From: Gammaproteobacteria bacterium
GTDB taxonomy: Bacteria > Pseudomonadota > Gammaproteobacteria > VBWC01
Length of the DNA: 64,000 nucleotides
Direction of reading: 5' to 3'
Assembly: GCA_023266115.1 (NCBI GenBank)
Contig: JAHFRU010000004.1
Coordinates: forward strand, 142,001 to 206,000
In this document: positions 5,161 through 59,594 of the stretch, piece by piece
How positions within the stretch are numbered: position 1 is the first letter of the stretch
Layout of the letters: the number at the start of each line of letters is the position of its first letter
Notes under the pieces: generated by a model
The model's database searches: none
Seen by the model: the letters and a program-made list of their open reading frames with translations, nothing else
Told to the model about the DNA's origin: nothing
Position numbers and translations under genes: made by a program

Positions 5161-6576
5161 TTATGCTCCCTCCAGACCTGGCGTCGCGGTTCCCGACGAC
5201 TGGTGATCGCCGGTACGACGATGGAATACATGCGCCTGCTCGTCGCGCGCCAAGCGGCGGCGGTGATAGACCATTTCCTTGACCTCGTACATCGAGACCG
5301 ACGGAAATATCTTCACAAAAACCAGGAACAGCAGTCCGAACCAGCCAAAGCTGCCAAAGACTATCGCCCACTGCACCATGCTGGGGTACATGATGTCCCA
5401 CGCCATCGGGTGATAGCCATACGCCAGGGTCGGCGAAACGATCATGTACCGCTCCAGCCACATACCGACGTTCAACAGCAGTGACACGACGAACATGGTC
5501 GGAATATGCCGCCGCAGTTTCTCGAAGGCGAGCGTAAACGGCAGGACCGAACCGAAGAACATCATGGCCCAGAAGAACGGCGAGTACGGACCGTAGAACT
5601 TGCCCAGCAGTACCTCCTTGTCGGCATAGTTATGGCCGTACCAGACCGATGCGAACTCGATCAGGTTGAGGTAGGTCCAGACCATCGCGATCGCGAACGT
5701 CAGTTTGCAGGTCTTCTCCAGAATCGGGATCGTCATGTACTCCTCGAAGCGGAAGAAGTAACGCAGACAGATAAACAGCGTGATGATCGCGGCACATCCG
5801 GAGTACAGCGCGCCCGCAACGAAGTATGGCGGGAACGTGGTCACATGCCAGCCGGGCTGGATCGACATCGCGAAGTCGGACGACACGATGGAGTGCACCG
5901 ATACGGCCAGCGGAATCAGGAAACACGCCATCAGCAGATAGGTCTTGCGGAAGTTACGCCATTGCCGGTCGTCACCGCGCCAGCCCAGTGACAGCGCAGT
6001 ATAGAGTTTCTTGCGCCAGCCCCTGGCGTTGTCACGGCAGATCGCCAGATCCGGGATCATGCCGATAAACAGAAACAGCGCCGACGACGTCAGGTAGGTA
6101 AATACCGCAAACGCATCCCAGATCAGCGGTGAGCGGAAGTTCGGCCAGATGCCGCGATCGCTGACGTACGGCAACGTCCAGTAGATATTCCAGAGGCGGC
6201 CGGCATGAATGACCGGGAACAGGCCCGCGGTCATCAGCGAGAACGTCGTCATTGCCTCGGCGAACCGGTAGATAGGCTTGCGCCAGTCGGAGCGGATGAT
6301 ATGCAAAATCGCGGACAACAGGGTTCCGGAGTGACTCATGCCGATCCAGAAAATGAACGTCGCGATATAGATATCCCACATATGCGGCCAGTTCAGGTTT
6401 GCCGGCCCCATCCCGGTGCTGTACTGGTAGATCTCGGCAGTTACCGCGCACGCCAGCATCGCGATGCAGCACCCGACCGCGATCCAGTACCCAATGCGCG
6501 GGTTCTCCATACTCCGCAACACGTCCTTGTTGATCTGGGCCCACTTTATGTCTTCATTAATATCTTTTGTCTGCAT
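5161..6576 (-). CDS. actC: alternative complex III subunit ActC (NrfD-like, quinol-binding candidate)
   Basis: Polytopic NrfD/PsrC-type protein of 471 residues with about ten transmembrane segments. In characterised complexes this subunit forms the quinol site next to the iron-sulfur subunit. Characteristic parts seen are FWIGMSHSGTLLSAILHIIR (a loop with His near the periplasmic face), WRKPIYRFAEAMTTF and GWHVTTFPPYFVAGALYSG. It starts with ATG at 6576, 47 bases after actB2 ends. Long length and position directly after the ferredoxin-like subunit separate it from ActF. Confidence 0.92.
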   Translation of the reverse strand: MQTKDINEDIKWAQINKDVLRSMENPRIGYWIAVGCCIAMLACAVTAEIYQYSTGMGPANLNWPHMWDIYIATFIFWIGMSHSGTLLSAILHIIRSDWRKPIYRFAEAMTTFSLMTAGLFPVIHAGRLWNIYWTLPYVSDRGIWPNFRSPLIWDAFAVFTYLTSSALFLFIGMIPDLAICRDNARGWRKKLYTALSLGWRGDDRQWRNFRKTYLLMACFLIPLAVSVHSIVSSDFAMSIQPGWHVTTFPPYFVAGALYSGCAAIITLFICLRYFFRFEEYMTIPILEKTCKLTFAIAMVWTYLNLIEFASVWYGHNYADKEVLLGKFYGPYSPFFWAMMFFGSVLPFTLAFEKLRRHIPTMFVVSLLLNVGMWLERYMIVSPTLAYGYHPMAWDIMYPSMVQWAIVFGSFGWFGLLFLVFVKIFPSVSMYEVKEMVYHRRRLARDEQAHVFHRRTGDHQSSGTATPGLEGA

Positions 6577-6623
6577 GCCTACACCATTTACCGAGTGACG
6601 TTAAGTGGAATAAGAAATCCGCG

Positions 6624-7538
6624 TCAGACTTCCCGGACACGCTCAAGAAACATGACACATGGATCGGTATTGAGCTCCTCCAGGAGGCGGTACCCGCGCA
6701 AATCAGGATTCGGCTTCTTTTGCGAGGTCTTGCCGAGCTCGACCTGATGACCGCGCCATAACTTGCTCACCTGGCTATCCGGATTGAGCATATCACCGAA
6801 GGAGATGGCGCTCGTCGGACAGGTCTGCTGACAGGCCGTCTGGAATTCCATGTCCTGCACCTTCGCCCGCCCGGGCGCGACCTTGAATTGCTGATCGCCC
6901 ACATTCACGAAGCCACCCTCCGCCACCACCCGATTCTCCATTTTAGCCTTGTCTTTTGCCGCACGTATCCGTTGCACGCAGAACGTGCACTTCTCCATCA
7001 CGCCCTTGTCCCGGACCGTCAGATCCGGATTCAGCTGCATATGCAGCGGTGCCGGCCATGACGATTCGTAATACGACCAGAAGTTAAAATAGCGCAGGCG
7101 GTACGGACAGTTATTGGAGCAGTAGCGGGAACCGATACAGCGGTTGTACACCTGGGCATTCAGGCCATCCGGGGTGTGGTAGGTCGCTGCCACCGGACAG
7201 ACCGGCTCGCAGGTTGCCGCGTTGCAATTCTGGCAATTCGTCGGTACAAAACTCGCGCCGTGGACCTGATATTCGCTAACGCGGTCCTCGCCGAGGTTCG
7301 GCTCGTCCCAGTAACGCTCTACCCGCATCCAGTGCAGTGCGTGGCCCTTCTCGAACTTCTCCTTGCCGACCACGGCAAGATTGTTCTCCGCATAGCAGGC
7401 GACCGAACAGGCGTTACAACCGATACACAGATTGAGATCGATGGCCATGCCCCACATATGCTCGTACTTGTGGTGGCCGCCCTGTTCGCGACCCTTGCGG
7501 TAGTCACCCCAGTTTTCAAGCAGATTCCTAAGCGACAT
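6624..7538 (-). CDS. actB2: alternative complex III iron-sulfur subunit, separate B2 part of ActB
   Basis: Ferredoxin-like protein of about 304 residues (DmsB/NrfC/PsrB type) carrying four cluster motifs. Three look like full four-Cys sets: CIGCNACSVAC, CQNCNAATCEPVC, and pairs CTFC / CQQTC. The remaining one, CIGSRYCSNNC, has Ser where the second Cys is usual, as expected for a [3Fe-4S] cluster, the known composition (three cubanes plus one 3Fe cluster) of ActB. The start is taken at 7538 (MSLRNLLENWGDY), which overlaps the actB1 end by 11 bases; an in-frame upstream extension is unlikely. In well-studied complexes this part is fused to B1; here it is a separate gene, as in the related Qrc complex. 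It has no signal peptide, so it may be exported bound to the Tat-dependent B1. Confidence 0.9.
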   Translation of the reverse strand: MSLRNLLENWGDYRKGREQGGHHKYEHMWGMAIDLNLCIGCNACSVACYAENNLAVVGKEKFEKGHALHWMRVERYWDEPNLGEDRVSEYQVHGASFVPTNCQNCNAATCEPVCPVAATYHTPDGLNAQVYNRCIGSRYCSNNCPYRLRYFNFWSYYESSWPAPLHMQLNPDLTVRDKGVMEKCTFCVQRIRAAKDKAKMENRVVAEGGFVNVGDQQFKVAPGRAKVQDMEFQTACQQTCPTSAISFGDMLNPDSQVSKLWRGHQVELGKTSQKKPNPDLRGYRLLEELNTDPCVMFLERVREV

Positions 7539-41145: not shown

Positions 41146-41214
41146 ATTCAGATTTTCTTCAATGTCACTGATCCGGCCCTGCGTGTATCATAAGGTTCGT
41201 GGAAGCCCCAATGA

Positions 41215-41303
41215 ATTCGTCATTCCGGGCGGAGCGAAGCGAAGACCCGGAATCCAGCGGCCGTTAGCGGGACTGGATTCCCGCTTTCGCGGGAATGACG
41301 AAT
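41215..41303. repeat. 89-base element with perfect 12-base terminal inverted repeats
   Basis: ATTCGTCATTCC (41215-41226) and GGAATGACGAAT (41292-41303) are exact inverted ends. Inside are the motifs GACCCGGAATCCAG and CTGGATTCCCGC-TTTC-GCGGGAAT, which can fold into nested hairpins. It lies upstream of leuS and of the divergent YbeL-like gene. Similar motifs occur at 35574-35772. Looks like a small non-autonomous (MITE/REP-like) element. Confidence 0.75.
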
Positions 41304-41433
41304 CTTGATACATGTCGCCCTCGCAGGCGATGCTCAATAATAGGAGCTTCCTGATGTCGATATCCGCAGCCTCCCGCCTGGCGGCGATTATAGCGTGGAC
41401 GGCAAACAATTGACGGCAAAAACAGGTGAACCG

Positions 41434-41961
41434 ATGATTCAGCACAAGCAACCCGCGACCGGCGACCGGCTCATAGCCGCCTACAACCGCATGATGGAAC
41501 GCGTCCGGGCCATGATCGACGAGGCCAGCAAGAAGGCGCTGCCGACATTACAGCATCGCGTCGACGCGGCCAAGGCCAAGGCCGTCGAGCTCGGCGAACT
41601 GACGCGTGAGGAGGCCGAGAAGATCGGCACCTATTTAAAGCGCGATATCGAGGATGCCGCCGAATACCTGTCCGGTCCGTCGCAGGAATTCGCCGACTGG
41701 CTCAGGTTCGATATCCAGCTGATCGAGGAACGGCTGCTGGAGATGTTCCTGACGGTGGCCGACCAGACCAAGGTGGAGCTGATGGAACTGGAACACGAGG
41801 CCCGGCGCGCCGACGCGTGGCATACCGGCGAGATCGCCGGCATCGGTACCCTGCAGTGCTTCGACTGCGGTGAGCTGCTGCACTTCCACGCCACCGGCCA
41901 CATTCCCCCCTGCCCCGTGTGCCGCGGCACCGCGTTCCGGCGGGTAGCGCCGGAGGAGTGA
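41434..41961 (+). CDS. zinc ribbon-containing protein (YbeL/DUF1451 type)
   Basis: 175-residue soluble protein of unknown function. A helical, charged N-terminal part with probable coiled coil (ERVRAMIDEASKKALPTL, AKAKAVELGELTREEAEKIG) is followed by a C-terminal zinc ribbon CFDCGELLHFHATG..PPCPVCRG. Start is the ATG at 41434 with AGGTG six bases before it; a GTG at 41395 is in frame but lacks such a site. The family is often found near leuS in gammaproteobacteria. Divergent from leuS. Confidence 0.88.
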   Translation: MIQHKQPATGDRLIAAYNRMMERVRAMIDEASKKALPTLQHRVDAAKAKAVELGELTREEAEKIGTYLKRDIEDAAEYLSGPSQEFADWLRFDIQLIEERLLEMFLTVADQTKVELMELEHEARRADAWHTGEIAGIGTLQCFDCGELLHFHATGHIPPCPVCRGTAFRRVAPEE

Positions 41962-41987: not shown

Positions 41988-42104
41988 ATGGCAGAGGAAG
42001 CAATGCAAAGAGTTCTTGATCGACTTGCCGAGATAGAAGCTGCTCTCGACGACCTAAAGCGAAAAGAATCGGTCTTCCCAAGACCGCTGTTGACAAATTT
42101 GTAG
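41988..42104 (+). CDS. small ORF, 38 residues, predicted helical
   Basis: ATG to TAG frame directly after the zinc-ribbon gene. The peptide has a heptad-like run VLDRLAEIEAALDDLKRKE that could form a coiled coil, and its lower-GC codon use differs from its left neighbour. No good ribosome binding site was seen. Could be a real small protein, the tail of a decayed gene, or chance. Confidence 0.3.
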   Translation: MAEEAMQRVLDRLAEIEAALDDLKRKESVFPRPLLTNL

Positions 42105-42109
42105 CAAGC

Positions 42110-42195
42110 GTAGCCCGGATGGAATGAAATGAAATCCGGGGATTGGTGGGTTGGATGATGAACTCCTCGATTCCGCTGCGCTGCATCGAGGCTAC
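42110..42195. repeat. REP-like palindromic element
   Basis: Begins GTAGCCCGGAT and ends ATCGAGGCTAC, so the outer six bases are inverted (GTAGCC/GGCTAC). It contains GGAATGAAATGAAATCCGGGG, an imperfect palindrome with the start, and a hairpin CCTCGA-N15-TCGAGG. GTAGCCCGGAT-type elements are common intergenic repeats in Proteobacteria. Marks the left edge of the ATP-grasp island. The rest of the 41962-42275 gap holds only the small ORF above. Confidence 0.6.
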
Positions 42196-42275
42196 AAAAT
42201 TAATGCGAGTGCCGATCAGGCAATCGGCGCGCAGCAACAACTCGCGTAACACATCCTGGCCGTTGTTGGATTGCG

Positions 42276-43496
42276 TCAAACTAATCCCGCCGACTTTAGT
42301 CGCCGCCGCTGCTCGACGATGTCGTCACGCGACTCCCCCAGCAGCAGGCCTGCCATGGTCGGCGCCGCACCGGTGGCGCCCATGGCGGCAGGGTCGAAGG
42401 TGCCGAACGGAACAAAGCACCCGGTATCCATCAGATCGCGCGCCGCGCGCAGCATGTCGCCGAAGCTGCCGGCATAGCGCCAGATGCGAAATTCGGCGGA
42501 CGGCAGTCCGGCGCGTCTGGCCACGGCATCGTGTATCAGCAGCGGTGTCGTCGATCCGTTGAAACGAAAGTTCAGATCATAAATATAAAATGAGCCGTCA
42601 CCGGTCAGCGCGGCATCCATGCCGGCGAAACCGCGGTAGCCGAGCCGTGCTGCGCTCGCTACGATCTCGCCGGCGGCATCGATCAGCGCCGCCGGCGGCG
42701 CGACGTCCGGCCCCAGCCAGTTGCCGAGATAGCCGCACTGTGCATCGATGATCTGTTCGGTGGTACCGATGTACGACACCATGCCATTGGCGGCCACGGC
42801 ATAGTTCACGCAGAAATTTTTCGCCATCGGGATATAGTCTTCAATGACGATGCGTTCGCAGCCGCTGAAGGTTGCCAGTGCACGCGCAACGTCTGTCGCG
42901 GTATGGCACAGGCGGACGCTTAAGCCGCCGCCACTGGTCTCGTCGCTCGCGACCTTGATAAGTAACGGCAGCGCATGTTGTTGCAGCGTTTCGGCATCGA
43001 ACAACGATGGATCACACAATATGCGCTCCGGAAGACAGAACACCGGCACCAGTTCAGCGAGGTTGCCCTTGTTATTGAGCCAGGACAGCAGCGATGAATC
43101 GATCCAGGTCGGGCCGGGGCGCAGCGACGCGTCCGGTTGCACGTGCTGGTCGATGACGATGATGCCCTGCTCCGCAAAGCGCACGAGCTGCGTATAACGG
43201 TCATCCGGGTCGCGATAGGTCACCGGTGTGGCGGTGATCTGGAAGCCGGCATCCCGCAGCAGTGCCAGACCCCCGCCGGTCGCCGAACCCGCGCTGCACA
43301 ACACCGGCATTTCGCCGGCAATAACGAGCTGGTTGCCGGTCTTGGCGTCGGCCGATGCCGGGTTGTGCGGCACCCAGTCAGCGGCGTTCTCGGGCGCGCG
43401 CGAGTTGAATGCGTAACCGGGACCGCACAGGTCAAACAACGTAGGTTCTGGAATAATCAGCGCCTTCACGCAGGGAGCCAGTCTTGAGAACTTCAC
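42276..43496 (-). CDS. ATP-grasp domain protein of unknown substrate
   Basis: 406-residue soluble protein with an ATP-grasp fold. Visible parts: LPLLIKVASDETSGGGLSV (nucleotide-binding Lys and Gly-rich loop), RIVIEDYIPMAKNFCVNY (adenine-contact Glu and strand), and the metal-binding end YIYDLNFRFNGST (Asp, Asn). The N-terminal third (NSRAPENAADWVPHN, FAEQGIIVIDQHV) resembles a pre-ATP-grasp domain. ATP-grasp enzymes join a carboxylate, through an acylphosphate, to an amine, thiol or hydroxyl. Start is GTG at 43496 (a second GTG at 43469 is possible). Divergent from the two paralogous ATP-grasp genes. I do not recognise a named enzyme. Confidence 0.75.
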   Translation of the reverse strand: MKFSRLAPCVKALIIPEPTLFDLCGPGYAFNSRAPENAADWVPHNPASADAKTGNQLVIAGEMPVLCSAGSATGGGLALLRDAGFQITATPVTYRDPDDRYTQLVRFAEQGIIVIDQHVQPDASLRPGPTWIDSSLLSWLNNKGNLAELVPVFCLPERILCDPSLFDAETLQQHALPLLIKVASDETSGGGLSVRLCHTATDVARALATFSGCERIVIEDYIPMAKNFCVNYAVAANGMVSYIGTTEQIIDAQCGYLGNWLGPDVAPPAALIDAAGEIVASAARLGYRGFAGMDAALTGDGSFYIYDLNFRFNGSTTPLLIHDAVARRAGLPSAEFRIWRYAGSFGDMLRAARDLMDTGCFVPFGTFDPAAMGATGAAPTMAGLLLGESRDDIVEQRRRLKSAGLV

Positions 43497-43578
43497 CTTT
43501 TACCCGTCAGCGGGGCATCCGTATACGTGTTATTTCCCATGACGCGAATACGCCTGCTGGCATAGTATCGACACTGCC

Positions 43579-44661
43579 ATGAAGAAACTGAAAAATCTGA
43601 TTACTCATATGCGACAGGCATCGGGCGTGCGCAGCATACCCGCGCAACTGCTCGACATCATTTTGCACAAGCTGATTCTGTGCGTGAGCGCGGCGGATTA
43701 CTACCATTTTGAGTTCTATCGCCCGGGCAAGACCTGGCAACAGAAAAGCCGTTATGTCGCGCTTGGCGGCTCGATCTACTGGCCGTTCGAGAACAATGAG
43801 TTCAGGTACGGCACCGCGCTAACGGACAAATATGTGCAGAAGCACCTGCTGATCGGGTTCGACCTGCCGACGCCGCGACTGATGGCCACGGTGGGGCCGG
43901 GCCGGGACATACAGGACGACACGCAGTGGCGTGATTTTTTAAATACCGTACAGCAGCCGATCATGCTCAAGCCGGTCAGCAGCGCCGGCGGCGACGGTAT
44001 CCTTGCGGTATCGAGGCGCGGCGAGCGGTTCTTCGCCGGCACGGCGAGCCAGACACCGGAGCAGCTGTGGGAACACATGCAATCAAAGTCGTATCAGGGA
44101 TTCCTGATCGAGGAGCGGGTCAGCAACACGGGCGTACTGGCGCGCCTGAATCCAACAAGCCTGAATACCTTTCGCGTCGTGACCATCAAGACCAACGACG
44201 GCGTCTGGCACGTGGCTGCGCCCGCCGTAAAAATCGGCGCGCCGGGTGCGGTGACCGATAACAATGCCCAGGGTGGTATACAAATCAATCTCGATGAATC
44301 AGGCAGACCACGCCACACGTTTGATTTCGCTACGCGGCAGTCCATCACGCATCATCCCGAGACCGGTATCGATCTGATGAATCTGGAGCTGGAGGGTTAT
44401 CGCGACGTGATTGACCTGGCGCTGCGCGCATCGCGGTGCTTTGGTTTTCTGGGCACCGTCGGCTGGGATATCGCATGGACGGATCAAGGCGCGATGATCA
44501 TCGAGGGCAATATCGTCTGGGGTTGCAGCAGCCTGCAACGCGGCGGACCGGGCATGATCACCGATACCCTGGCAGCCGGATTGAAGCGGCATCACGTCTT
44601 CGGCCGATGGGACAAAAGCCGACTCTATCCTGGCTACAACCGCCGGCCGTTCTGGTCCTGA
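43579..44661 (+). CDS. sugar-transfer-associated ATP-grasp protein, copy 1
   Basis: 360 residues of the ATP-grasp group found in polysaccharide loci (sugar-transfer-associated ATP-grasp, PF14397 type). Conserved features: YWPFENNEFRYG and KYVQKHLLIGFDLPTPR near the N-terminus, LKPVSSAGGDGILAV (Lys and Gly loop), FLIEERV (Glu), and GWDIAWTDQGAMIIEGNIVWG at residues about 315-335, here quoted in part, with the metal-binding Glu/Asn. No signal peptide or membrane helix. A second copy at 45899-46996 is about 70 percent identical by eye. No clear ribosome binding site precedes the ATG. Probably ligates an amino acid or other acid to a sugar or glycan precursor; this is inference. Confidence 0.8.
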   Translation: MKKLKNLITHMRQASGVRSIPAQLLDIILHKLILCVSAADYYHFEFYRPGKTWQQKSRYVALGGSIYWPFENNEFRYGTALTDKYVQKHLLIGFDLPTPRLMATVGPGRDIQDDTQWRDFLNTVQQPIMLKPVSSAGGDGILAVSRRGERFFAGTASQTPEQLWEHMQSKSYQGFLIEERVSNTGVLARLNPTSLNTFRVVTIKTNDGVWHVAAPAVKIGAPGAVTDNNAQGGIQINLDESGRPRHTFDFATRQSITHHPETGIDLMNLELEGYRDVIDLALRASRCFGFLGTVGWDIAWTDQGAMIIEGNIVWGCSSLQRGGPGMITDTLAAGLKRHHVFGRWDKSRLYPGYNRRPFWS

Positions 44662-44701
44662 CGGAGATGACGGCGACGGAAAATGTCAGCGCAAAGTAAT
44701 A

Positions 44702-45862
44702 ATGCACGTTCCGGCACCGGAGCGATTACCCGAAATGAAGGCGATAATTAATCGGTTACGCAGCAGGTTGCGGGTGTATCGAAAGAATGGCTGGCTGCTG
44801 GATGGAAATGAAAAACACAGCAACAGCCATCTCAAAATATTCTACGCGCGGCGCGCGCTGAACAAGAATTGGATCGCCCACCTCGCATACGGCGTTGTGT
44901 ATCGCGAAGACCACGAGGGCAAGGTCTGGATATGGGCTATTCCGTGGTTGGCAGCGCGATACAGGGATATCGCACTGGTGATAGGCCAGGAAAATGCCAG
45001 CGAACTCAAACGGGCTGGCCGCCGCAGTGACTTCTATGTGCCGTTCCGGGTAGATAGCGAATTCAATCTACCGCTGAACGAAGACAAAATCAGGAGCAAG
45101 GAAGGCGTTCGCAGCGATATACGAAATGTCCGGAAATATCGCCAAGAATACGAAATCACCCACGAAGATCAGAAATTCCGGTTGTTCTATGACACGATGT
45201 ACGTGGCTCATACTCTCAAGGCGCAGGGTAACTGCGGGGCGCTGATGCCATTCGATTTAATGATAAAACAGATCGACAGCGCGGACCTGATACCGACCAG
45301 ACGTGGCACAGAGTACGTTGCTGGCGAAGTCGTCGTCCATGAGCGGAATGGCGTTCGCGCGTGGTCGCTTGGCGTGAAGGACGGCGATAACCGGTATGTC
45401 AGGGAAGGGGTGCTTGGCGCTATTTAACATTTTGAAATGCAGTATCTGGCTGAACAGGGTTTCTGCAAACTGAATGCCGGGGCGTCGCGGGCGTCCCTTG
45501 AAGGCGGCGCGCTGCAATACAAGAAGAAGTGGGAAGCGCGCATCACCCCGCCCGGGTGCGGAGGCTTCCTGTTGCGTATTGCCAAGGGATCACCGGGTCT
45601 GACGGCTTTTTTGCAGAATAATCCATTCATCAGTTGTCTGAACGATGCTCTGGACGGCATCATATTCGGGCCAGAACAATGCGCGATCACCTGCGACCAG
45701 AACGACAGGGTCAAAACGAAGTGCGGGATTCCAGGCTTGAAGGACCTTGAGATTTATTATTTGAAAGAATCCGGCGAACAACATCCGGTTGCAAGGCTGG
45801 AAAACCTCGCGACAATGCCGGCGGATGGCATCCCCGGCCGGCTAACTGAACTGTACGAATAA
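44702..45862 (+). pseudogene. FemAB/GNAT-like acyltransferase interrupted by one in-frame TAA
   Basis: One reading frame of 386 codons broken only by TAA at 45425-45427. The part before it (241 residues) has the FemAB/BioF2-like centre with RSDIRNVRKYRQEYEITHED and a long helix DTMYVAHTLKAQGN; the part after resumes as HFEMQYLAEQGFCKLNAGAS and RASLEGGALQYKKKWEAR, matching the usual end of this family (a G-SRPFLNDG-L-YK-KWG style motif). The expected residue at the stop is Tyr (one base change from TAC/TAT). If split, ATG 45437 could start a separate product but without a ribosome site. Composition is visibly poorer in GC than the flanks. The family transfers amino acyl groups or acyl groups to amines of cell-wall or polysaccharide precursors. 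Confidence 0.75.
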
Positions 45863-45898
45863 CCGGATTGTGATCGACACGCAGCCACTGATATCGCC

Positions 45899-46996
45899 AT
45901 GAAAAAATTAAAACGCCTGGTATGGTATATGCGCAAGGCATCACAAGTACGCAGCATACCGGCGCAGCTCGTCGACATTGTGCTGCACAGACTACTCCTC
46001 TGCCTGAGCCCGGCCGATTACTACCGTCACGAGTTTTATCGTCCCGGCAAGACGTGGGAAGAAAAAAGCCGCTATGTCACGGCAGATGGCTCGGTGTACT
46101 GGCCGTTCGAGAACAATGAATCAAAATTCGGCATCTCGTTAACGGACAAGTATGTCCAGAAACACTTGCTGATCGGACTAGGCCTGCCGACACCGCGACT
46201 ATTGGCCACCGCAGGCACAGACCATAGTATCCAGACCGCCGCGCAGTGGCGTGAGTTTCTGGAGAACGTCGCACAACCTCTGGTACTCAAACCGGTGAGC
46301 AGCGCGTGTGGCGCCGGAATTCTGGTAGTGAAAAAAAATGGCGATCGCTTTCATTCCATCAGGGACAACTACACGGCGGAACAACTCTGGGAACACATGC
46401 AACGCGTATCAAGAAGAGGTTTCCTGATCGAAGAAAGAGTCTGCAACGCGGGAGTACTGGCCCGCCTGAATGCGACCAGCCTGAACACTTTCCGGGTCGC
46501 GACCATTAAAACCAGTGACGGCAGATGGCATGTAGCCGCGACGGTCGTACATATCGGCGCACCGGGTACTATGGTGGATAACGAGGAGGACAGTGGTTAC
46601 CAGATCAGCCTGGACGATTCTGGCCGCCCCCGTTACGCATATGATTTCACGAGTCAGACCGCGATCACGCACCATCCCGAAACCGGCATCGATCTGATTA
46701 ACCTGGAACTGGAGGGATACCGTGACGTGACCGCTCTTGCGCTCCGCGCGTCGCGGAGTTTCGGTTTTCTCGGCACCATAGGCTGGGATATCGCGTGGAC
46801 CGACAAAGGCGCGATGATCATCGAGGGTAATATCGTCTGGGAGTGCCACAACTTTCAGCGCGGCGTACCCGGCGTGATAAACGATACGCTCGCAAGAGGC
46901 CTGACGCGGCACCGTATCTTTGACCGCTGGGACAAAACGAGACTCTATCCCGGTTATGACCGGCGGCGGTTCTGGGCCCGCTGGAACCGTACCTAA
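45899..46996 (+). CDS. sugar-transfer-associated ATP-grasp protein, copy 2
   Basis: 365-residue paralogue of the protein at 43579-44661, same length and motifs: LKPVSSACGAGILVV, FLIEERVCNAGVLARLN, DIAWTDKGAMIIEGNIVWE, and RWDKTRLYPGYDRR near the end. Differences cluster in the N-terminal surface and around residues 130-165, and GG in the Gly-rich loop becomes CG. Both copies have the same short leader before the ATG and no clear ribosome site. Tandem duplication with the broken FemAB-like gene between; divergence suggests different substrates or partial redundancy. It ends about 100 bases before the convergent lnt gene. Confidence 0.8.
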   Translation: MKKLKRLVWYMRKASQVRSIPAQLVDIVLHRLLLCLSPADYYRHEFYRPGKTWEEKSRYVTADGSVYWPFENNESKFGISLTDKYVQKHLLIGLGLPTPRLLATAGTDHSIQTAAQWREFLENVAQPLVLKPVSSACGAGILVVKKNGDRFHSIRDNYTAEQLWEHMQRVSRRGFLIEERVCNAGVLARLNATSLNTFRVATIKTSDGRWHVAATVVHIGAPGTMVDNEEDSGYQISLDDSGRPRYAYDFTSQTAITHHPETGIDLINLELEGYRDVTALALRASRSFGFLGTIGWDIAWTDKGAMIIEGNIVWECHNFQRGVPGVINDTLARGLTRHRIFDRWDKTRLYPGYDRRRFWARWNRT

Positions 46997-47094: not shown

Positions 47095-48609
47095 CTATGC
47101 CCGACCACTCCGCAGCCACCCGGCCACCATAAGAAACGCGATCGTCAACACCACCACCGGTACATTGCCCGCATCGATATACGGCGTCGTGCCCCGCTGC
47201 GGCTGGACCGTACCGCTCAGTACATAGGTCTCGAACTGCGGCGCGGTGTCGACGAGCTGGCCTTTCCGGTCGATGATCGCGGTGACGCCGGTGTTGGTGG
47301 CGCGCAGCATCGGCCGGGCGGTTTCAACGGAGCGCATGCGCGCGATCTGCAGGTGCTGGTGCGGGCCTATCGAGCGGCCGAACCAACCGTCGTTGCTGAC
47401 GTTCACCAGCAGGCCCGCCTCGGGCAGCGTTTCGATGACCTCTTCGCCGAACGCATCTTCAAAACAGATCGAGATGCTGATCTTGTGGCCGGCCGCCTCA
47501 AGCAGCGGCTGACCACTGTGGCCGGCGCTGAAGTCGGACATCGGCACGTCCATGAACGCGACCAGCCCGCCGAGCAGATACTTGAACGGCAGGGACTCGG
47601 TGAATGGAACCAGATGGCGCTTGTGATAAAAGCCTTTGGTGCTGCCGGCGCTGATCATGCTGTTGTAGTACCGCCCGCTGGCCAGGTCCATGTACAACAC
47701 GCCTGCCAGCAGGTCAGTGCCCTCGGCGCGCAGTTCTTCGCTGAACTCGTCGAACATGAACTCGAGTTCGTCGTAAAACGCCGGCATGGCCGATTCCGGC
47801 CAGATCACCAGATCGGCGCCCCACTGCTGGCGCGTCAGATCGCGATACATATCGATCGTCGGCTGGCGCTGGTCGGGATGCCATTTTACGTCCTGCGAGA
47901 TGTTGCCCTGGATCATCGCAATCTTCAGCGGTGCGCCATCCGGTTCAGTCCACTCGATCTGACTCAACACAAAACCGGCGAGCCAGATTACGGCGAGCGA
48001 GGCGAGCCAGCCCGTCTTGGCCATCCAGCCACGGTCGGTCAACAGCAACACCAGCAGCCCGGCACTTAATGCGACCATCAACGACACGCCATAGACACCG
48101 GCCACCGGCGCGTAGCCGACAAGCGGGCTGTCGATCTGGCTGTAACCAAGATTCAGCCACGGGAATCCGGTCAGGAACCAGCCGCGCACCCATTCGGCAA
48201 GCACCCAGCCGGCCGGCAGTACCAGCAGCAGCTGCAGGCGCGCGGCACGCATCCCCAACCTGTGACTAACGCGGTTACACCAATAACCGTACAACGCCGG
48301 GAACAGCGCGAGAAACGCCACCAGCAGCGCGGTCAGAAATAGCGCGAGCGCCAGCGGTACATGGCCGTAGTGGTGGACGCTGATAAATATCCAGGTAATG
48401 CCCGTACCGAACATGCCCAGACCGAACAACCAGCCACGCCAGAACGCCCGGCCGCGTGACACCTCCAGCCACAACGCGAATAGCACGGCGGGCGCTACGA
48501 CGGCGACCGGAAAATAGTTGAATGGCGCAAAGGCCAGCGGCAAAGACGCACCGGCGGCGACTGCCGCAACATCACCCGGCCAACCGGTCCGCAGAATTCG
48601 TGGGAACAT
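47095..48609 (-). CDS. lnt: apolipoprotein N-acyltransferase
   Basis: Adds the third acyl chain to lipoproteins in the inner membrane. 504 residues: about seven N-terminal membrane helices, then a nitrilase domain with WPESAMPAF (Glu), GFYHKRHLVPF (Lys) and ISICFEDAFGEEV (Cys). The oxyanion-side VSNDGWFGRSIGPHQH is also typical. Followed upstream by corC as in most gammaproteobacteria. Confidence 0.96.
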   Translation of the reverse strand: MFPRILRTGWPGDVAAVAAGASLPLAFAPFNYFPVAVVAPAVLFALWLEVSRGRAFWRGWLFGLGMFGTGITWIFISVHHYGHVPLALALFLTALLVAFLALFPALYGYWCNRVSHRLGMRAARLQLLLVLPAGWVLAEWVRGWFLTGFPWLNLGYSQIDSPLVGYAPVAGVYGVSLMVALSAGLLVLLLTDRGWMAKTGWLASLAVIWLAGFVLSQIEWTEPDGAPLKIAMIQGNISQDVKWHPDQRQPTIDMYRDLTRQQWGADLVIWPESAMPAFYDELEFMFDEFSEELRAEGTDLLAGVLYMDLASGRYYNSMISAGSTKGFYHKRHLVPFTESLPFKYLLGGLVAFMDVPMSDFSAGHSGQPLLEAAGHKISISICFEDAFGEEVIETLPEAGLLVNVSNDGWFGRSIGPHQHLQIARMRSVETARPMLRATNTGVTAIIDRKGQLVDTAPQFETYVLSGTVQPQRGTTPYIDAGNVPVVVLTIAFLMVAGWLRSGRA

Positions 48610-54055: not shown

Positions 54056-56791
54056 TCAGGCGCAGTTTTTACTTTTATAGTATGCGCTCTGGCGCGGCTC
54101 GCCCTGCGGGCGGCCGGACCGCGGCCGGAAACCCATGGCAAACAGTCCAGCCAGCGCGATAACCATCAGCCAGCCCGGAGCAAATACGCCGCCACCCCCG
54201 CCCCCGGCGGAGACTACCCGCGTCGTGATGCTGGCGAGGTTGTTCGTTAACACCGGATCCGATTCACTGGCGCGGGCGATGAGTGCGGCCCGGGTATACG
54301 ATGCGGCGTCTGCCGGCACGTAGGTGAGCAACACCGATGCCGATGCATTGCCGGCCAGCACGCCCAGTTCACAAACAACCACCCGCTGCACCAGAGTACA
54401 GGTACCCTGCGATGGCACGGCCGACAACACCGTTAATGACTGCGGTTCGTCGAACGAAACCGGGGAGGTATCCACCAGCATGATTTCGTCAGCCGTGTCG
54501 GGACCCCCGTTGATCACGGTCACCGTCGATGTATACGGTTGCCCGGCGATCACCGACGATGTCGCGTTATCGGTCTTGGTCACGACCAGATCGGTGCTCC
54601 GGGTCGGGGCGATACGTACGACAAACGCATCGCTGGTGCCGCGCAGCGACGCCTGAATAGCGGCAACGGACGGAAACGTCAGCAGGTCACTGCCGGCGTA
54701 GGTGTCGGCAATCTGGCTGTCGGGCGCCGGCGTCGCGTCAGAGCGCAGCGTCTGGCCAACGACATGCGCGACGTTCGCCGCGTCCAGCGCGATACCAAAC
54801 GCGGTGTCCGATCCCGGCCCGCCGAGAAACGTGGAATACACCAGCGCGCCGCTGCTGGAAAGATTGACGACAAACGCATCCGAATCGCCCAGCAGATACC
54901 CCTGCATGACGTTCTTCAACGGAAAACCGGGCGAGACCGTTTGCCCGGCAACAAATGCATTACCGCTCGCATCGACCGCGATCGCGTTACCGATATCAAT
55001 GCCCGCGCCACCGAGAAACGTCGAATACGACAACGCCGTGCCGGTCGCGTTGAGTTTGGTGACGAACGCATCCCGCGTGATCCCGGCGGTGGCATGCGTT
55101 GCCTGTACCGGGTTCAATGTCGGGAAATCCAGCGATATGGTGGCCCCGGTGACATACGCGTTGCCCGAACCATCGACGGCGATGGCATAACTGCGATCGA
55201 AGTTGATCCCCCCCAGGTAGGTGGAATACACCAGACTGCTGCCAGCACTGCCGAGCTTCGTCACAAAGGCATCACCGGCGCCGGCGGGAAATTCCCGGTA
55301 AGCACCGGCCGTCTTGGGAAAGTCTCCTGAAAACGTCGCGCCGGTGACATAGGCATTGCCCGAGCCGTCCACTGCAATACCCGTGACGCTGTCATCGCCG
55401 GCGCCACCGAGAAACGTCGAATAGGTCAGCACACCGGTGCTGGAGAATTTCGATACGAAGCCGTCTTTCGCCCCGCCGATCGCCCCCTGAAAAGGCGACG
55501 CGGTCGGAAAACCACCCGACGCCGTCTCGCCGCCGACGTACGCGTTACCGGAACCATCCACGGCGATCGCCGCGCCGCTGTCGGCGCCACTGCCGCCATG
55601 ATACGTGGAAAACACCAGCTCATTGCCCGCCGTGTTCAGCTTCGCAACGAAGGCGTCCGACAGACCGCCGTCACAGCCACTGCCGCTGCCGCACACACCG
55701 TCACGCGGGCTTGCCAGCGGAAAATTAGACGATGTGGTATCGCCGGTCACAAACGCATTCCCGGCGCTGTCGATCGCAATGCCGTTACCGGCATCGTCGC
55801 CGCTGCCGCCGAGATAGGTCGCGTAAACCCGGCTGCCGCCCAGGTTGAGCTTCAGCACAAACACGTCCTTGTTCCCCGCATGCAACGCTTGCGTGGTGCC
55901 GGACGACGTCGGAAAATCGATCGAGTCCGTCTCGCCGGTTATATAGATGCCGGTTGCATTTACCGCAATGCCACGGCCAACGTCGCTGCCGCTGCCGCCG
56001 TACACCGTCGCGTAGCTGATCACCGGATCAATGATCAGCGGGTAGGCGACATCATAGGAAGCGATGTCGAAACCGACCTGGTTGCGTGCCTTGTGGATAA
56101 ATCGCCCGTCGACCGGGACGCGCGCGCCCGCGATATCCTGATAGACCACCGGCGCGTGCTGTACCAGCGTGCGCCCGGCGCTGCGCAACACCAGATTGCC
56201 GCGCTCATCAATCGCCACTGTCGCACCGTCGAACTGCAGTCGGATAGCCTCGGCACGTGCGCCAGGATTGACGACGAAGTCGTATTCCGCCGCATTACCC
56301 TCGCCGTGAAAAACCAGATTGATGCCGGGATAAAGCGCGCGGTAGACCACAGTATCGAACACCGGCACGTCGGTACGCCAGGCGTCCAGGTTACTACCGG
56401 TCAAATAATTCAGCTGCTCCGGCTGGAGTCCGCGGCCCTCGACCGGCACCGCCGGATCGGCGCCGACAAACCGCAACCGGACCGATGCGCGCTGACTGGT
56501 CACCGGGTCGGCATCGCCGGCCAACGACCAGACCACTTCGTCGCGCGCCAGGAACAGGGTGTAACCGCGGCCGCGCGCCAGATACCGGACCTGCGCCGAC
56601 ACCTGCCCGTCGTTACGCTCGAAACGCAGCGGAAACCCGTCGGCAACAGCCTTCGCTGCCAAGGCGTTCGATGCAGCGGATACGGACCCCGGCGCCCCGC
56701 CGGCATGCGCCGCGGGCATCAGCAACAGCGCCGCGAGCACGGCCCAGAAAACGTTGCGTTTTGTGCTCGAATGCCTTCGATAATTCCGCAT
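54056..56791 (-). CDS. secreted SBBP-repeat beta-propeller protein with DUF11-like domain and C-terminal sorting-like tail
   Basis: About 911 residues. Signal peptide MRNYRRHSSTKRNVFWAVLA, then ...LLLMPAAHA. A N-terminal domain of about 230 residues (FERNDGQVSAQVRYLARG, ELNYLTG-like, YPGINLVFHGEG) of the kind that precedes SBBP repeats. Next come eight or so SBBP repeats, each with GGSGxDxGxGIAVDxxGNAYVTGxTxSxDFPT spacing. After these a DUF11-like domain (VVTKTDNATSSVIAGQPYT) and a Gly6 linker, hydrophobic helix VFAPGWLMVIALAGLFAMG and Arg tail resembling CTERM-type sorting signals. No enzyme motif. Start at ATG 56791 is chosen because it begins a good signal peptide; a longer frame exists. 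Probably cell-surface or adhesive; function unknown. Confidence 0.8.
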   Translation of the reverse strand: MRNYRRHSSTKRNVFWAVLAALLLMPAAHAGGAPGSVSAASNALAAKAVADGFPLRFERNDGQVSAQVRYLARGRGYTLFLARDEVVWSLAGDADPVTSQRASVRLRFVGADPAVPVEGRGLQPEQLNYLTGSNLDAWRTDVPVFDTVVYRALYPGINLVFHGEGNAAEYDFVVNPGARAEAIRLQFDGATVAIDERGNLVLRSAGRTLVQHAPVVYQDIAGARVPVDGRFIHKARNQVGFDIASYDVAYPLIIDPVISYATVYGGSGSDVGRGIAVNATGIYITGETDSIDFPTSSGTTQALHAGNKDVFVLKLNLGGSRVYATYLGGSGDDAGNGIAIDSAGNAFVTGDTTSSNFPLASPRDGVCGSGSGCDGGLSDAFVAKLNTAGNELVFSTYHGGSGADSGAAIAVDGSGNAYVGGETASGGFPTASPFQGAIGGAKDGFVSKFSSTGVLTYSTFLGGAGDDSVTGIAVDGSGNAYVTGATFSGDFPKTAGAYREFPAGAGDAFVTKLGSAGSSLVYSTYLGGINFDRSYAIAVDGSGNAYVTGATISLDFPTLNPVQATHATAGITRDAFVTKLNATGTALSYSTFLGGAGIDIGNAIAVDASGNAFVAGQTVSPGFPLKNVMQGYLLGDSDAFVVNLSSSGALVYSTFLGGPGSDTAFGIALDAANVAHVVGQTLRSDATPAPDSQIADTYAGSDLLTFPSVAAIQASLRGTSDAFVVRIAPTRSTDLVVTKTDNATSSVIAGQPYTSTVTVINGGPDTADEIMLVDTSPVSFDEPQSLTVLSAVPSQGTCTLVQRVVVCELGVLAGNASASVLLTYVPADAASYTRAALIARASESDPVLTNNLASITTRVVSAGGGGGGVFAPGWLMVIALAGLFAMGFRPRSGRPQGEPRQSAYYKSKNCA

Positions 56792-56939
56792 GCGTTGAGC
56801 ATAGCACGAGACCACACAGAGGTCTTTTGCGGCGCGGATCAACCGCGTCATCCACGTGCCGGCGCGACGCTCAAGGCACGGCGCATTCCAGCCGATATTT
56901 TAACCATGGGCCGAAGTTAACGATATCGGCGCCGGGGAT

Positions 56940-56951
56940 CCCCCCCCCCCC
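56940..56951. repeat. 12-base poly-C tract
   Basis: Run of twelve C between the divergent SBBP and FG-GAP genes, about 67 bases upstream of the lipoprotein ATG and about 150 from the SBBP ATG. Such tracts slip in replication and may change promoter spacing (phase variation). It could also be an assembly-uncertain length. Confidence 0.7.
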
Positions 56952-57017
56952 GGGCCAGGGTTCGGGCGTAGCACCGACAGAATTCCGGTGGCTTAACGAT
57001 CATTTCAGGAGTTCGAC

Positions 57018-59594
57018 ATGCGTCGCCCGTTCCACCTGTTACCGCTCGTGCTGCTGCCCCTGACGCTAGTCGGCTGCGGGGGATCGAGCATACCTGCGAC
57101 GACGCCAGTAACGGTCGCAACCTACACCGTCGGCGGAACCGTATCGGGCCTGGCCGGCACCGGCCTCGTACTGCGTAACAACGGCAGCGATGCCCTGGGC
57201 GTCAGCGCCAGCGGCGCGTTCACCTTCGCCACCGCGCTTACCGACGGCAGTGGCTACAGCGTCACCATCGCGACGCAACCGGGTTCGCCGGCGCAGACCT
57301 GCGCTCCGACAAATAACAGCGGCGCACTCAGTGGTGCGAATATCACCAACGTAACGATTACCTGTACCACGAATTCCTACACCATCAGCGGCACGGTATC
57401 CGGGCTCACCGGCAGCGGTCTCGTATTGCGCAACAACGGCGGCAACGATCTGGCGATCAGCGCCAACGGCGTGTTCGCCTTCACGACGGCGATCACCAGC
57501 GGCAGCAGCTACGGCGTCACGGTCGCGGCGCAACCGGGGTCACCGGCCCAGACCTGCACGCCGACGAGTAGCAGCGGCACTGTCAGCGGTGCAAACGTCA
57601 CCAACGTGGCGATTACCTGTGCGACGAGTTCCTACACCATCGGCGGCGCGGTGTCCGGGCTCACCGGCAGCGGCCTCGTAATACGCAACAACGGCGGCGA
57701 CGATCTGGCGATCAGCGGCAACGGCGCGTTCACCTTTGCGACAGCGCTCGCCGACGGCAGCAGCTACAACGTCACGGTCGCGACCCAACCGGGGTCACCG
57801 GCCCAGACCTGCACGCCGACGAGTAACAGCAGCACCGTCAGCGGTGCGAACGTCACCAATGTCGCGATCACGTGCACCGGCGGAGGCGCCCCGCCGGCAA
57901 CGACGCTAATTCTCGGCGTCGGCATCAAAACGTTCAACTTTTCCTGGGCGGCGTCCGCCGGCGCGACCCATTACAAGCTCTATGAGGACCCCGACGGCGT
58001 CTCCGGGTTCAGCCAGGTCGGCGGCAATATCGCCGGCACCAGCACCAGCGTCGATATCGCGGTTCATCGACACAATTGGGTCAACGCGGTCTACATGCTT
58101 GATGCCTGCGTCAACGCGAGTTGTACCGCCTCGAACCAGGTGACGACCACCAGCGCCATGCTCACTGCCATCGGTTATTTCAAGGCATCGAATACCGGCG
58201 ACAGCGACGAGTTCGGCGCGGTACTGGCGGTAAGCGCCGACGGCACCACCCTCGCTGTCGGCAGCTACCGGGAAGACAGCAACGCCACCGGTATCGGCGG
58301 TGACCAGACCGATAATTCGGCCAACGACGCCGGCGCAGTGTACGTTTTCACGCGCAGCGGCACCACCTGGTCGCAACAGGCCTACATCAAGGCGTCCAAT
58401 GCCGAGGCCGATGACCGGTTCGGTTACTCCATCGCGCTGAGCGATGACGGCAACACGCTGGCCGTCGGCGCCTACCAGGAAGACAGCAATGCCACCGGTA
58501 TCGGCGGTAACCAGGCGGATAATTCCTCCACCGAGGCCGGCGCGGTGTACGTTTTCACTCGCAGCGGTACGACCTGGACGCAACAGGCCTACATCAAGGC
58601 CTCCAATGCGGGGGATCTTGATACCTTCGGCTACGCCGTTGCCCTCAACGACAACGGCAACACCCTCGCGGTGGACGCCATTGACGAAGCCAGTAATGCC
58701 ACCGGCATCAATGGCGACGAAGCGGATAACTCCGCTACCAGCGCGGGTGCGGTGTACGTCTTCACACGCAGCGGCACCACCTGGACACAACAGGCCTACA
58801 TCAAGGCATCCAACGCCGAGGCGTTCGATACCTTCGGCTATGCCGTTGCCCTCAGCGGCGACGGCAATACGCTCGCGGTGGACGCCAATAACGAAGCCAG
58901 TAATGCCACCGGCATCAATGGCGACGAGACGGATAACTCCGCTACCAGCGCGGGTGCGGTGTACGTCTTCACGCGCAGCGGCACCACCTGGACACAACAG
59001 GCCTACATCAAGGCATCCAACGCCGAGGCGTTCGACACCTTCGGCACCGCAATCGCGTTAAATGGCGACGGCAATACCCTCGCTGCCGGGGCATTCAATG
59101 AAGACAGCAATAGCACCGGCATAAATGGCAACCAGGCGGACAATTCGGCGAGCAGGTCAGGAGCGGTGTACGTCTTCACGCGCAGCGGCACCACCTGGAC
59201 GCAACAGGTCTACATCAAGGCATCCAACGCCGAGGCCAGCGACCGGTTCGGCGTGGCGCTGACGTTAAGCAACAATGGCAATACGCTAGCTGTCGGCGCA
59301 ACAGGCGACAGCAGCAATGCCACGGGTGTTGGTGGCGATCAAACCGACAACTCGAATAGCGGGGCCGGGGCCGCGTATATCTTCACCCGCAGCGGCACCA
59401 CGTGGTCGCAAGACAAATACATCAAGGCGTCGAATACCGGCGCCAGTGATCGATTCGGTCAGTCGCTGACGCTGAATAGCGACGGCGCCACGCTGGCGAT
59501 CAGTGCTACACGAGAGGACAGCAACGCGACCGGCATCGGCGGCGACCAGACCGACGAAACGGTATTGAACTCCGGCGCCGTCTATCTCTACTAA
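57018..59594 (+). CDS. repeat-rich lipoprotein with seven FG-GAP type repeats
   Basis: 858 residues, exported lipoprotein: signal ends LTLVGCGG with lipid Cys20. Residues about 35-290 are three 85-residue units (TVSGLTGSGLVLRNNG, QPGSPAQTCTPTS, NVTNVAITC) of a carbohydrate-adhesin-like beta domain, each with two Cys. A linker of Fn3-like sequence (FSWAASAGATHYKLYEDP) follows, then seven FG-GAP/integrin-like repeats of exactly 69 residues, each starting Y(I/F)KASN and containing GAVYVFTRSGTTW. These probably form a seven-bladed beta-propeller. The ATG is preceded by AGGAG at good spacing. No catalytic motif; a surface-exposed binding or adhesion role is likely. Divergent from the SBBP protein. 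Confidence 0.82.
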   Translation: MRRPFHLLPLVLLPLTLVGCGGSSIPATTPVTVATYTVGGTVSGLAGTGLVLRNNGSDALGVSASGAFTFATALTDGSGYSVTIATQPGSPAQTCAPTNNSGALSGANITNVTITCTTNSYTISGTVSGLTGSGLVLRNNGGNDLAISANGVFAFTTAITSGSSYGVTVAAQPGSPAQTCTPTSSSGTVSGANVTNVAITCATSSYTIGGAVSGLTGSGLVIRNNGGDDLAISGNGAFTFATALADGSSYNVTVATQPGSPAQTCTPTSNSSTVSGANVTNVAITCTGGGAPPATTLILGVGIKTFNFSWAASAGATHYKLYEDPDGVSGFSQVGGNIAGTSTSVDIAVHRHNWVNAVYMLDACVNASCTASNQVTTTSAMLTAIGYFKASNTGDSDEFGAVLAVSADGTTLAVGSYREDSNATGIGGDQTDNSANDAGAVYVFTRSGTTWSQQAYIKASNAEADDRFGYSIALSDDGNTLAVGAYQEDSNATGIGGNQADNSSTEAGAVYVFTRSGTTWTQQAYIKASNAGDLDTFGYAVALNDNGNTLAVDAIDEASNATGINGDEADNSATSAGAVYVFTRSGTTWTQQAYIKASNAEAFDTFGYAVALSGDGNTLAVDANNEASNATGINGDETDNSATSAGAVYVFTRSGTTWTQQAYIKASNAEAFDTFGTAIALNGDGNTLAAGAFNEDSNSTGINGNQADNSASRSGAVYVFTRSGTTWTQQVYIKASNAEASDRFGVALTLSNNGNTLAVGATGDSSNATGVGGDQTDNSNSGAGAAYIFTRSGTTWSQDKYIKASNTGASDRFGQSLTLNSDGATLAISATREDSNATGIGGDQTDETVLNSGAVYLY
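57120..57884 (+). repeat. three tandem 255-base repeats in the lipoprotein gene
   Basis: Unit starts at 57120, 57375 and 57630 (ACCTACACC / TCCTACACC), a constant step of 255 bases or 85 codons. The second and third units are the more similar pair at DNA level. Confidence 0.85.
58176..59594 (+). repeat. seven tandem 207-base repeats in the lipoprotein gene
   Basis: The phase marker TAC/TAT-TTC/ATC-AAGG recurs at 58176, 58383, 58590, 58797, 59004, 59211 and 59418, always 207 bases apart (69 codons). The stretches around 58681-58836 and 58888-59043 are nearly identical, so one unit was copied recently. Confidence 0.9.

Follow-up and report, generated by a model that had tools for sequence, protein, structure and literature searches.

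A probable genus-restricted accessory locus of ATP-grasp ligases between leuS and lnt, with a stable divergent gene pair and a decaying addition

ATP-grasp enzymes activate a carboxylate as an acyl-phosphate, which is then passed to an amine (or a hydroxyl). The described proteins closest to those reported here include the staphylococcal L-aspartate--L-methionine ligase LdmS (NF047900) and the ATPgrasp_ST family (PF14397), many members of which are encoded beside glycosyltransferases or flippases. No functional study of ATPgrasp_ST was found in a literature search, and searches on the staphylococcal ligase, on ATP-grasp combined with FemAB and on ATP-grasp combined with exosortase returned no direct match. 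ATP-grasp and Fem-type GNAT ligases are peptide-bond makers, and amidoligase clusters include operons with ATP-grasp ligases (PMC2922099). The locus analysed here resembles these clusters in that the same folds lie side by side. It differs from them in that the cluster holds no modifying enzymes, carriers or transporters, and in that the set is not conserved.

The locus is located between leuS/DUF1451 and lnt in a gammaproteobacterial genome, within a 64,000-nucleotide stretch of contig JAHFRU010000004.1 (referred to as the window, to which coordinates refer unless a locus is named). As an earlier sequence-only reading had stated, four genes, named A to D, are present in this interval:

41395-41961: DUF1451 gene
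42276-43496, minus strand: gene A, LdmS-like ATP-grasp ligase of 406 aa (homology to NF047900 and PDB 7r8p)
43497-43578, no strand: divergent A/B spacer of 82 bp
43579-44661, plus strand: gene B, sugar-transfer-associated ATP-grasp (ATPgrasp_ST) protein of 360 aa (PF14397)
44702-45862, plus strand: gene C, putatively GNAT/FemAB-like and broken, with a single frame of some 386 codons (the genome has intact paralogues)
45425-45427, plus strand: in-frame TAA cutting gene C
45899-46996, plus strand: gene D, second ATPgrasp_ST paralogue of 365 aa (PF14397)
47095-48609: lnt

The start that had been given for the island, 41988, falls some 290 bp short of the first gene, and the spacer there holds a short sequence and no gene. 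Genes B, C and D are co-directional and separated by gaps of about 40 bp. Given this operon-like layout, the three may have acted jointly before C was broken. GC3 is 0.63 in C and 0.65 in D, versus 0.73–0.83 in the neighbouring genes. The promoter signal in the A/B region is not significant, the single promoter-like site being fewer than in shuffled sequences. No glycosyltransferase, transporter or carrier gene was seen in the island, in agreement with the earlier description; elsewhere in the window, the judgement was based on ORFs.

Judged by sequence, A is clearly a distant homologue of LdmS. In a profile search, A matched NF047900 at E 2e-49 with 168.3 bits, which does not reach the equivalog cut-off of 475, and the substrate pair of LdmS is therefore not transferable to A. 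The protein, which is missed by Pfam, shows full-length homology (residues 16-398, E 6.6e-30, 129 bits) to PDB 7r8p, titled only as an ATP-grasp domain-containing protein, which we take to be the staphylococcal enzyme; 7r8q was likewise matched by sequence. A DLNFR-NGST motif is common to A and 7r8p. Unlike LdmS, A is encoded on the chromosome of a gammaproteobacterium, and its neighbour is an ATPgrasp_ST gene.

B and D are full members of the ATPgrasp_ST family, with PF14397 scores of 139.3 and 118.5 bits, respectively, against a gathering cut-off of 31.4. As the two proteins are also 69% identical, their earlier designation as sugar-transfer-associated ATP-grasp paralogues holds. An alignment of 30 relatives of B, D among them, shows K84, K131, R199, D297 and E309 as invariant residues, and N311 is found in 29 of the 30. 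Unlike many of their relatives, B and D are not accompanied by glycan genes, as judged from the ORFs nearby. The association with sugar-transfer genes, from which the family takes its name and which is not a criterion of the model, was thus not observed for either protein.

The structure model of B (pLDDT 87.6) features an ATP-grasp ligase fold with a helical N-terminus. Its best matches are RimK, LysX and ArgX (Z 15-16), and TIGR02291, an alpha-L-glutamate ligase-like NCBIfam model, is a weak match. These matches would fit a RimK-, LysX- or ArgX-like role of A, B and D, with proteins or cofactors as the targets instead of glycans. We consider such a role very unlikely, as many other ATP-grasp enzymes match the B model at similar Z scores, no LysW-like carrier protein was seen among the neighbouring ORFs, and the contexts of PF14397 genes elsewhere are often glycan-related.

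The reading frame of C, which opens at 44702, meets the TAA and then continues for a further 144 open, homologous codons, a run with a chance probability of about 0.001. The stop falls within the best-modelled, GNAT-like core of the protein, ahead of its most conserved motif, L-YKKKW. Both halves of C align to two intact paralogues in the same genome (31% identity to the gene at 5927-7111 of locus L013, and 20% to that at 6078-7223 of locus L014). An interpretation as two separate short genes was rejected, as the halves are in frame with each other and match the same intact genes. Going by its reading frame, C as sequenced is not functional, a break that the sequence-only reading had missed; the TAA may have arisen in sequencing or assembly.

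The family of C is less well defined than its fold. No Pfam family (FemAB included) matched C at E values up to 5, nor did any NCBIfam model, and one of the intact paralogues shows a weak match to Acetyltransf_6 (PF13480). The model of the read-through protein is of low confidence (mean pLDDT 54.8), a value with which its nearest folds have to be read: FemX chains come first (E 1e-4), followed by streptothricin aminoacyl-tRNA-dependent synthases and MprF. In its best-modelled part, C is GNAT-like and may resemble the dupli-GNAT aminoacyltransferases of the FemX/FemAB and MprF type; it differs from these and from Acetyltransf_6 in that it lacks a Pfam match and is cut by a stop. The label “FemAB/GNAT-like” has fair support from modelling at the fold level and is tentative at the family level. 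With this proviso, profile, homology and fold matches bear out the enzyme classes of the sequence-only reading, namely three ATP-grasp ligases and one GNAT/FemAB-like protein.

In both this genome and that of the sister species introduced below, an intact C paralogue is convergent to a gene for a small secreted protein and to a gene for an oxidoreductase-like protein that by eye resembles GMC (3948-7111 of L013 and 3834-6997 of L012). In the sister alone, two tandem, similar-looking genes are inserted near this paralogue (1905-3604 of L012).

The sister species is represented by the gammaproteobacterial MAG X1_MaxBin.010 (VBWC01000004.1), the one further genome of the order in the comparison, in which the locus reads leuS-DUF1451-A-B-lnt. 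Cultured members of the genus were not encountered. A and B are divergent there too, across a spacer of 110 bp. The A proteins of the two species are 81% identical (dN/dS 0.23), and the start of the sister gene aligns to an in-frame GTG nine codons further in; the B proteins are 91% identical (dN/dS 0.17, dS 0.26). The corresponding dN/dS values are 0.10 for leuS and 0.17 for lnt. Both A and B are under purifying selection. The B–D split, for which dS is 1.2 and dN/dS 0.17, is much older than the split between the species, since dS between the two B genes is only 0.26.

No remnants of C or D were found between B and lnt in the sister, and its genome carries neither D nor a direct counterpart of C anywhere, just the two C paralogues. 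C and D may either be ancestral and have been lost in the sister, or have been acquired from a relative; the pair looks like a lineage-specific, decaying addition. We favour, with a probability of about 0.6, a genus-restricted accessory locus formed by a stable, divergent A–B core, its conservation being that seen in a single two-species comparison, and a decaying C–D addition, over a conserved four-enzyme pathway.

The distribution of the genes was analysed in a sample of 369 genomes of the class (272 genera), in which relatives of B were collected at E values up to 1e-8 and those of A at up to 1e-12. Relatives of A are restricted to its own genus, and those of B and C occur in 8 and 4 of the 272 genera, respectively. 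In a phylum sample of 132 genera, A and C were found in this genome alone. The flanks (up to 10 kb) of 69 named loci with B relatives carry an A homologue in the sister only, that is, in none of the relatives outside the genus, and a C homologue in none of the 69. The next nearest B, in UBA1844 (30% identical), is solitary, with pilT-like genes and a toxin-antitoxin-like pair as its neighbours. A phage origin was rejected, as B has no match in the phage collection and C has no relative in viral contigs. An origin from mobile plasmids was also rejected; the relatives of A and B found there are all distant (24-31% identical), and the C paralogue has none.

The lack of A near B outside the genus, the solitary UBA1844 gene and the rearranged short sequences carried by the spacers of the locus would fit a scheme in which A, B, C and D were inserted separately between housekeeping genes, at a site that tolerates insertions, and are functionally unconnected, A and B included. 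This is unlikely, in our estimate, because A and B are divergent across 82-110 bp in both species and are both under purifying selection. Neighbourship over so short a divergence need not imply a joint function.

The sequence-only reading had taken the four genes as one set that could attach amino acids to a glycan or lipid precursor. A single pathway of this kind would require that the sister lost C and D and that the TAA is either erroneous or of very recent origin. The operon-like layout of B, C and D speaks for it, as do the contexts in which the families occur elsewhere. For instance, B relatives are found near glycosyltransferases, polysaccharide flippases, DegT aminotransferases and nucleotide-sugar dehydrogenases, although none of these occurs at more than a minority of the loci, and a relative on a Lactococcus plasmid is surrounded by glycosyltransferases. 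A Lichenicola relative, by contrast, is an orphan. Relatives of C have asparagine synthase-like, glycosyltransferase, Mur-ligase-like and polysaccharide pyruvyl transferase genes in their neighbourhood. Closely spaced tandem ATPgrasp_ST genes, up to four copies, were seen at roughly 7 of the 69 loci, and duplication of the B–D type is thus recurrent in the family. The longest array in the 69 loci is that of an Oscillospiraceae MAG (SVJS01000001.1, 7263-11550 of L039), in which four ATPgrasp_ST genes are arranged head to tail. The strongest C relatives outside the genus are two tandem C-family genes located upstream of an asparagine synthase-like gene (9362-13703 of L105, genome G310).

A relative of A is coupled to a GNAT gene on a Gemmobacter aquarius plasmid (NZ_CP028919.1, 3743-7207 of L109). 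In this locus, the LdmS-like ATP-grasp gene and an Acetyltransf_6 gene overlap, with polysaccharide pyruvyl transferase and mannose-nucleotide genes beside them, which makes the locus a candidate for an amino acid-decorated glycan. This single instance, in which the Acetyltransf_6 protein cannot be recognised as homologous to C (5 bits), mildly favours a partnership between A and a GNAT protein. The A relative comes after a possible PP-loop ATPase, recognised by eye from a SAGVDS motif.

Against these points, the combination was found in no sampled genome outside the genus, C is broken, C and D are missing from the sister, and glycan genes were not seen in the island. A lack of co-occurrence in other genomes, which the sequence-only reading had itself named as grounds for refutation, is largely what the survey of B relatives showed, and we regard a four-gene pathway as rather improbable. 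The claim also matters less, because the set is not conserved and one of its genes is broken.

We return to the accessory locus with an A–B core. We infer, as we do for all substrates and for any joint action of A and B, that A, B and D should activate a carboxylate as an acyl-phosphate, since this is the established chemistry of ATP-grasp enzymes. By analogy with LdmS, A would probably convert the carboxylate of an amino acid into an acyl-phosphate at the expense of ATP and join it to a second amino acid, most likely yielding a dipeptide-like product. B and its old duplicate D would probably form an ATP-driven amide or, less likely, ester bond in the same manner, on a carboxylate that a sugar (glycan) or small molecule either bears or is to be linked with. 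C would formerly have been a FemAB-like acyl- or aminoacyltransferase. That A and B work in series, A making a dipeptide that B attaches to a sugar or a lipid headgroup in a genus-specific peptidyl-glycan modification, is a doubtful extension of this scheme. Since the usual glycan machinery is not adjacent, the divergent A/B pair is a small, self-contained place to test what an ATPgrasp_ST ligase attaches.

The related families had also been placed in exosortase/EPS loci. The part of this statement that concerns glycan-type loci stands for the B and C families, as described above, and the exosortase part does not: no PF09721 match was found in the genome, which is 98% complete. Nor was the sorting-like tail ascribed to an SBBP protein in the window confirmed, as no sorting domain was present among the NCBIfam matches of this protein at E values up to 1. 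An exosortase/PEP-CTERM-associated locus was accordingly rejected. The genes for the SBBP protein, a beta-propeller, and for a large protein resembling a lipoprotein are divergent at 54056-59594; the tail of the SBBP protein has a hydrophobic stretch followed by basic residues.

Two short sequences were identified in the vicinity of A. At 42104-42235, a 132-bp spacer sequence has a counterpart of 97% identity in the spacer of the sister, and the flanks differ on both sides. This sequence, which carries a TAGCCCGGATG...AATCCGGGG inverted repeat, is possibly a dispersed intergenic repeat. At 41188-41451, a spacer reading frame has a translation that includes SFPRKRES, presumably the mark of a dispersed repeat common in proteobacteria.
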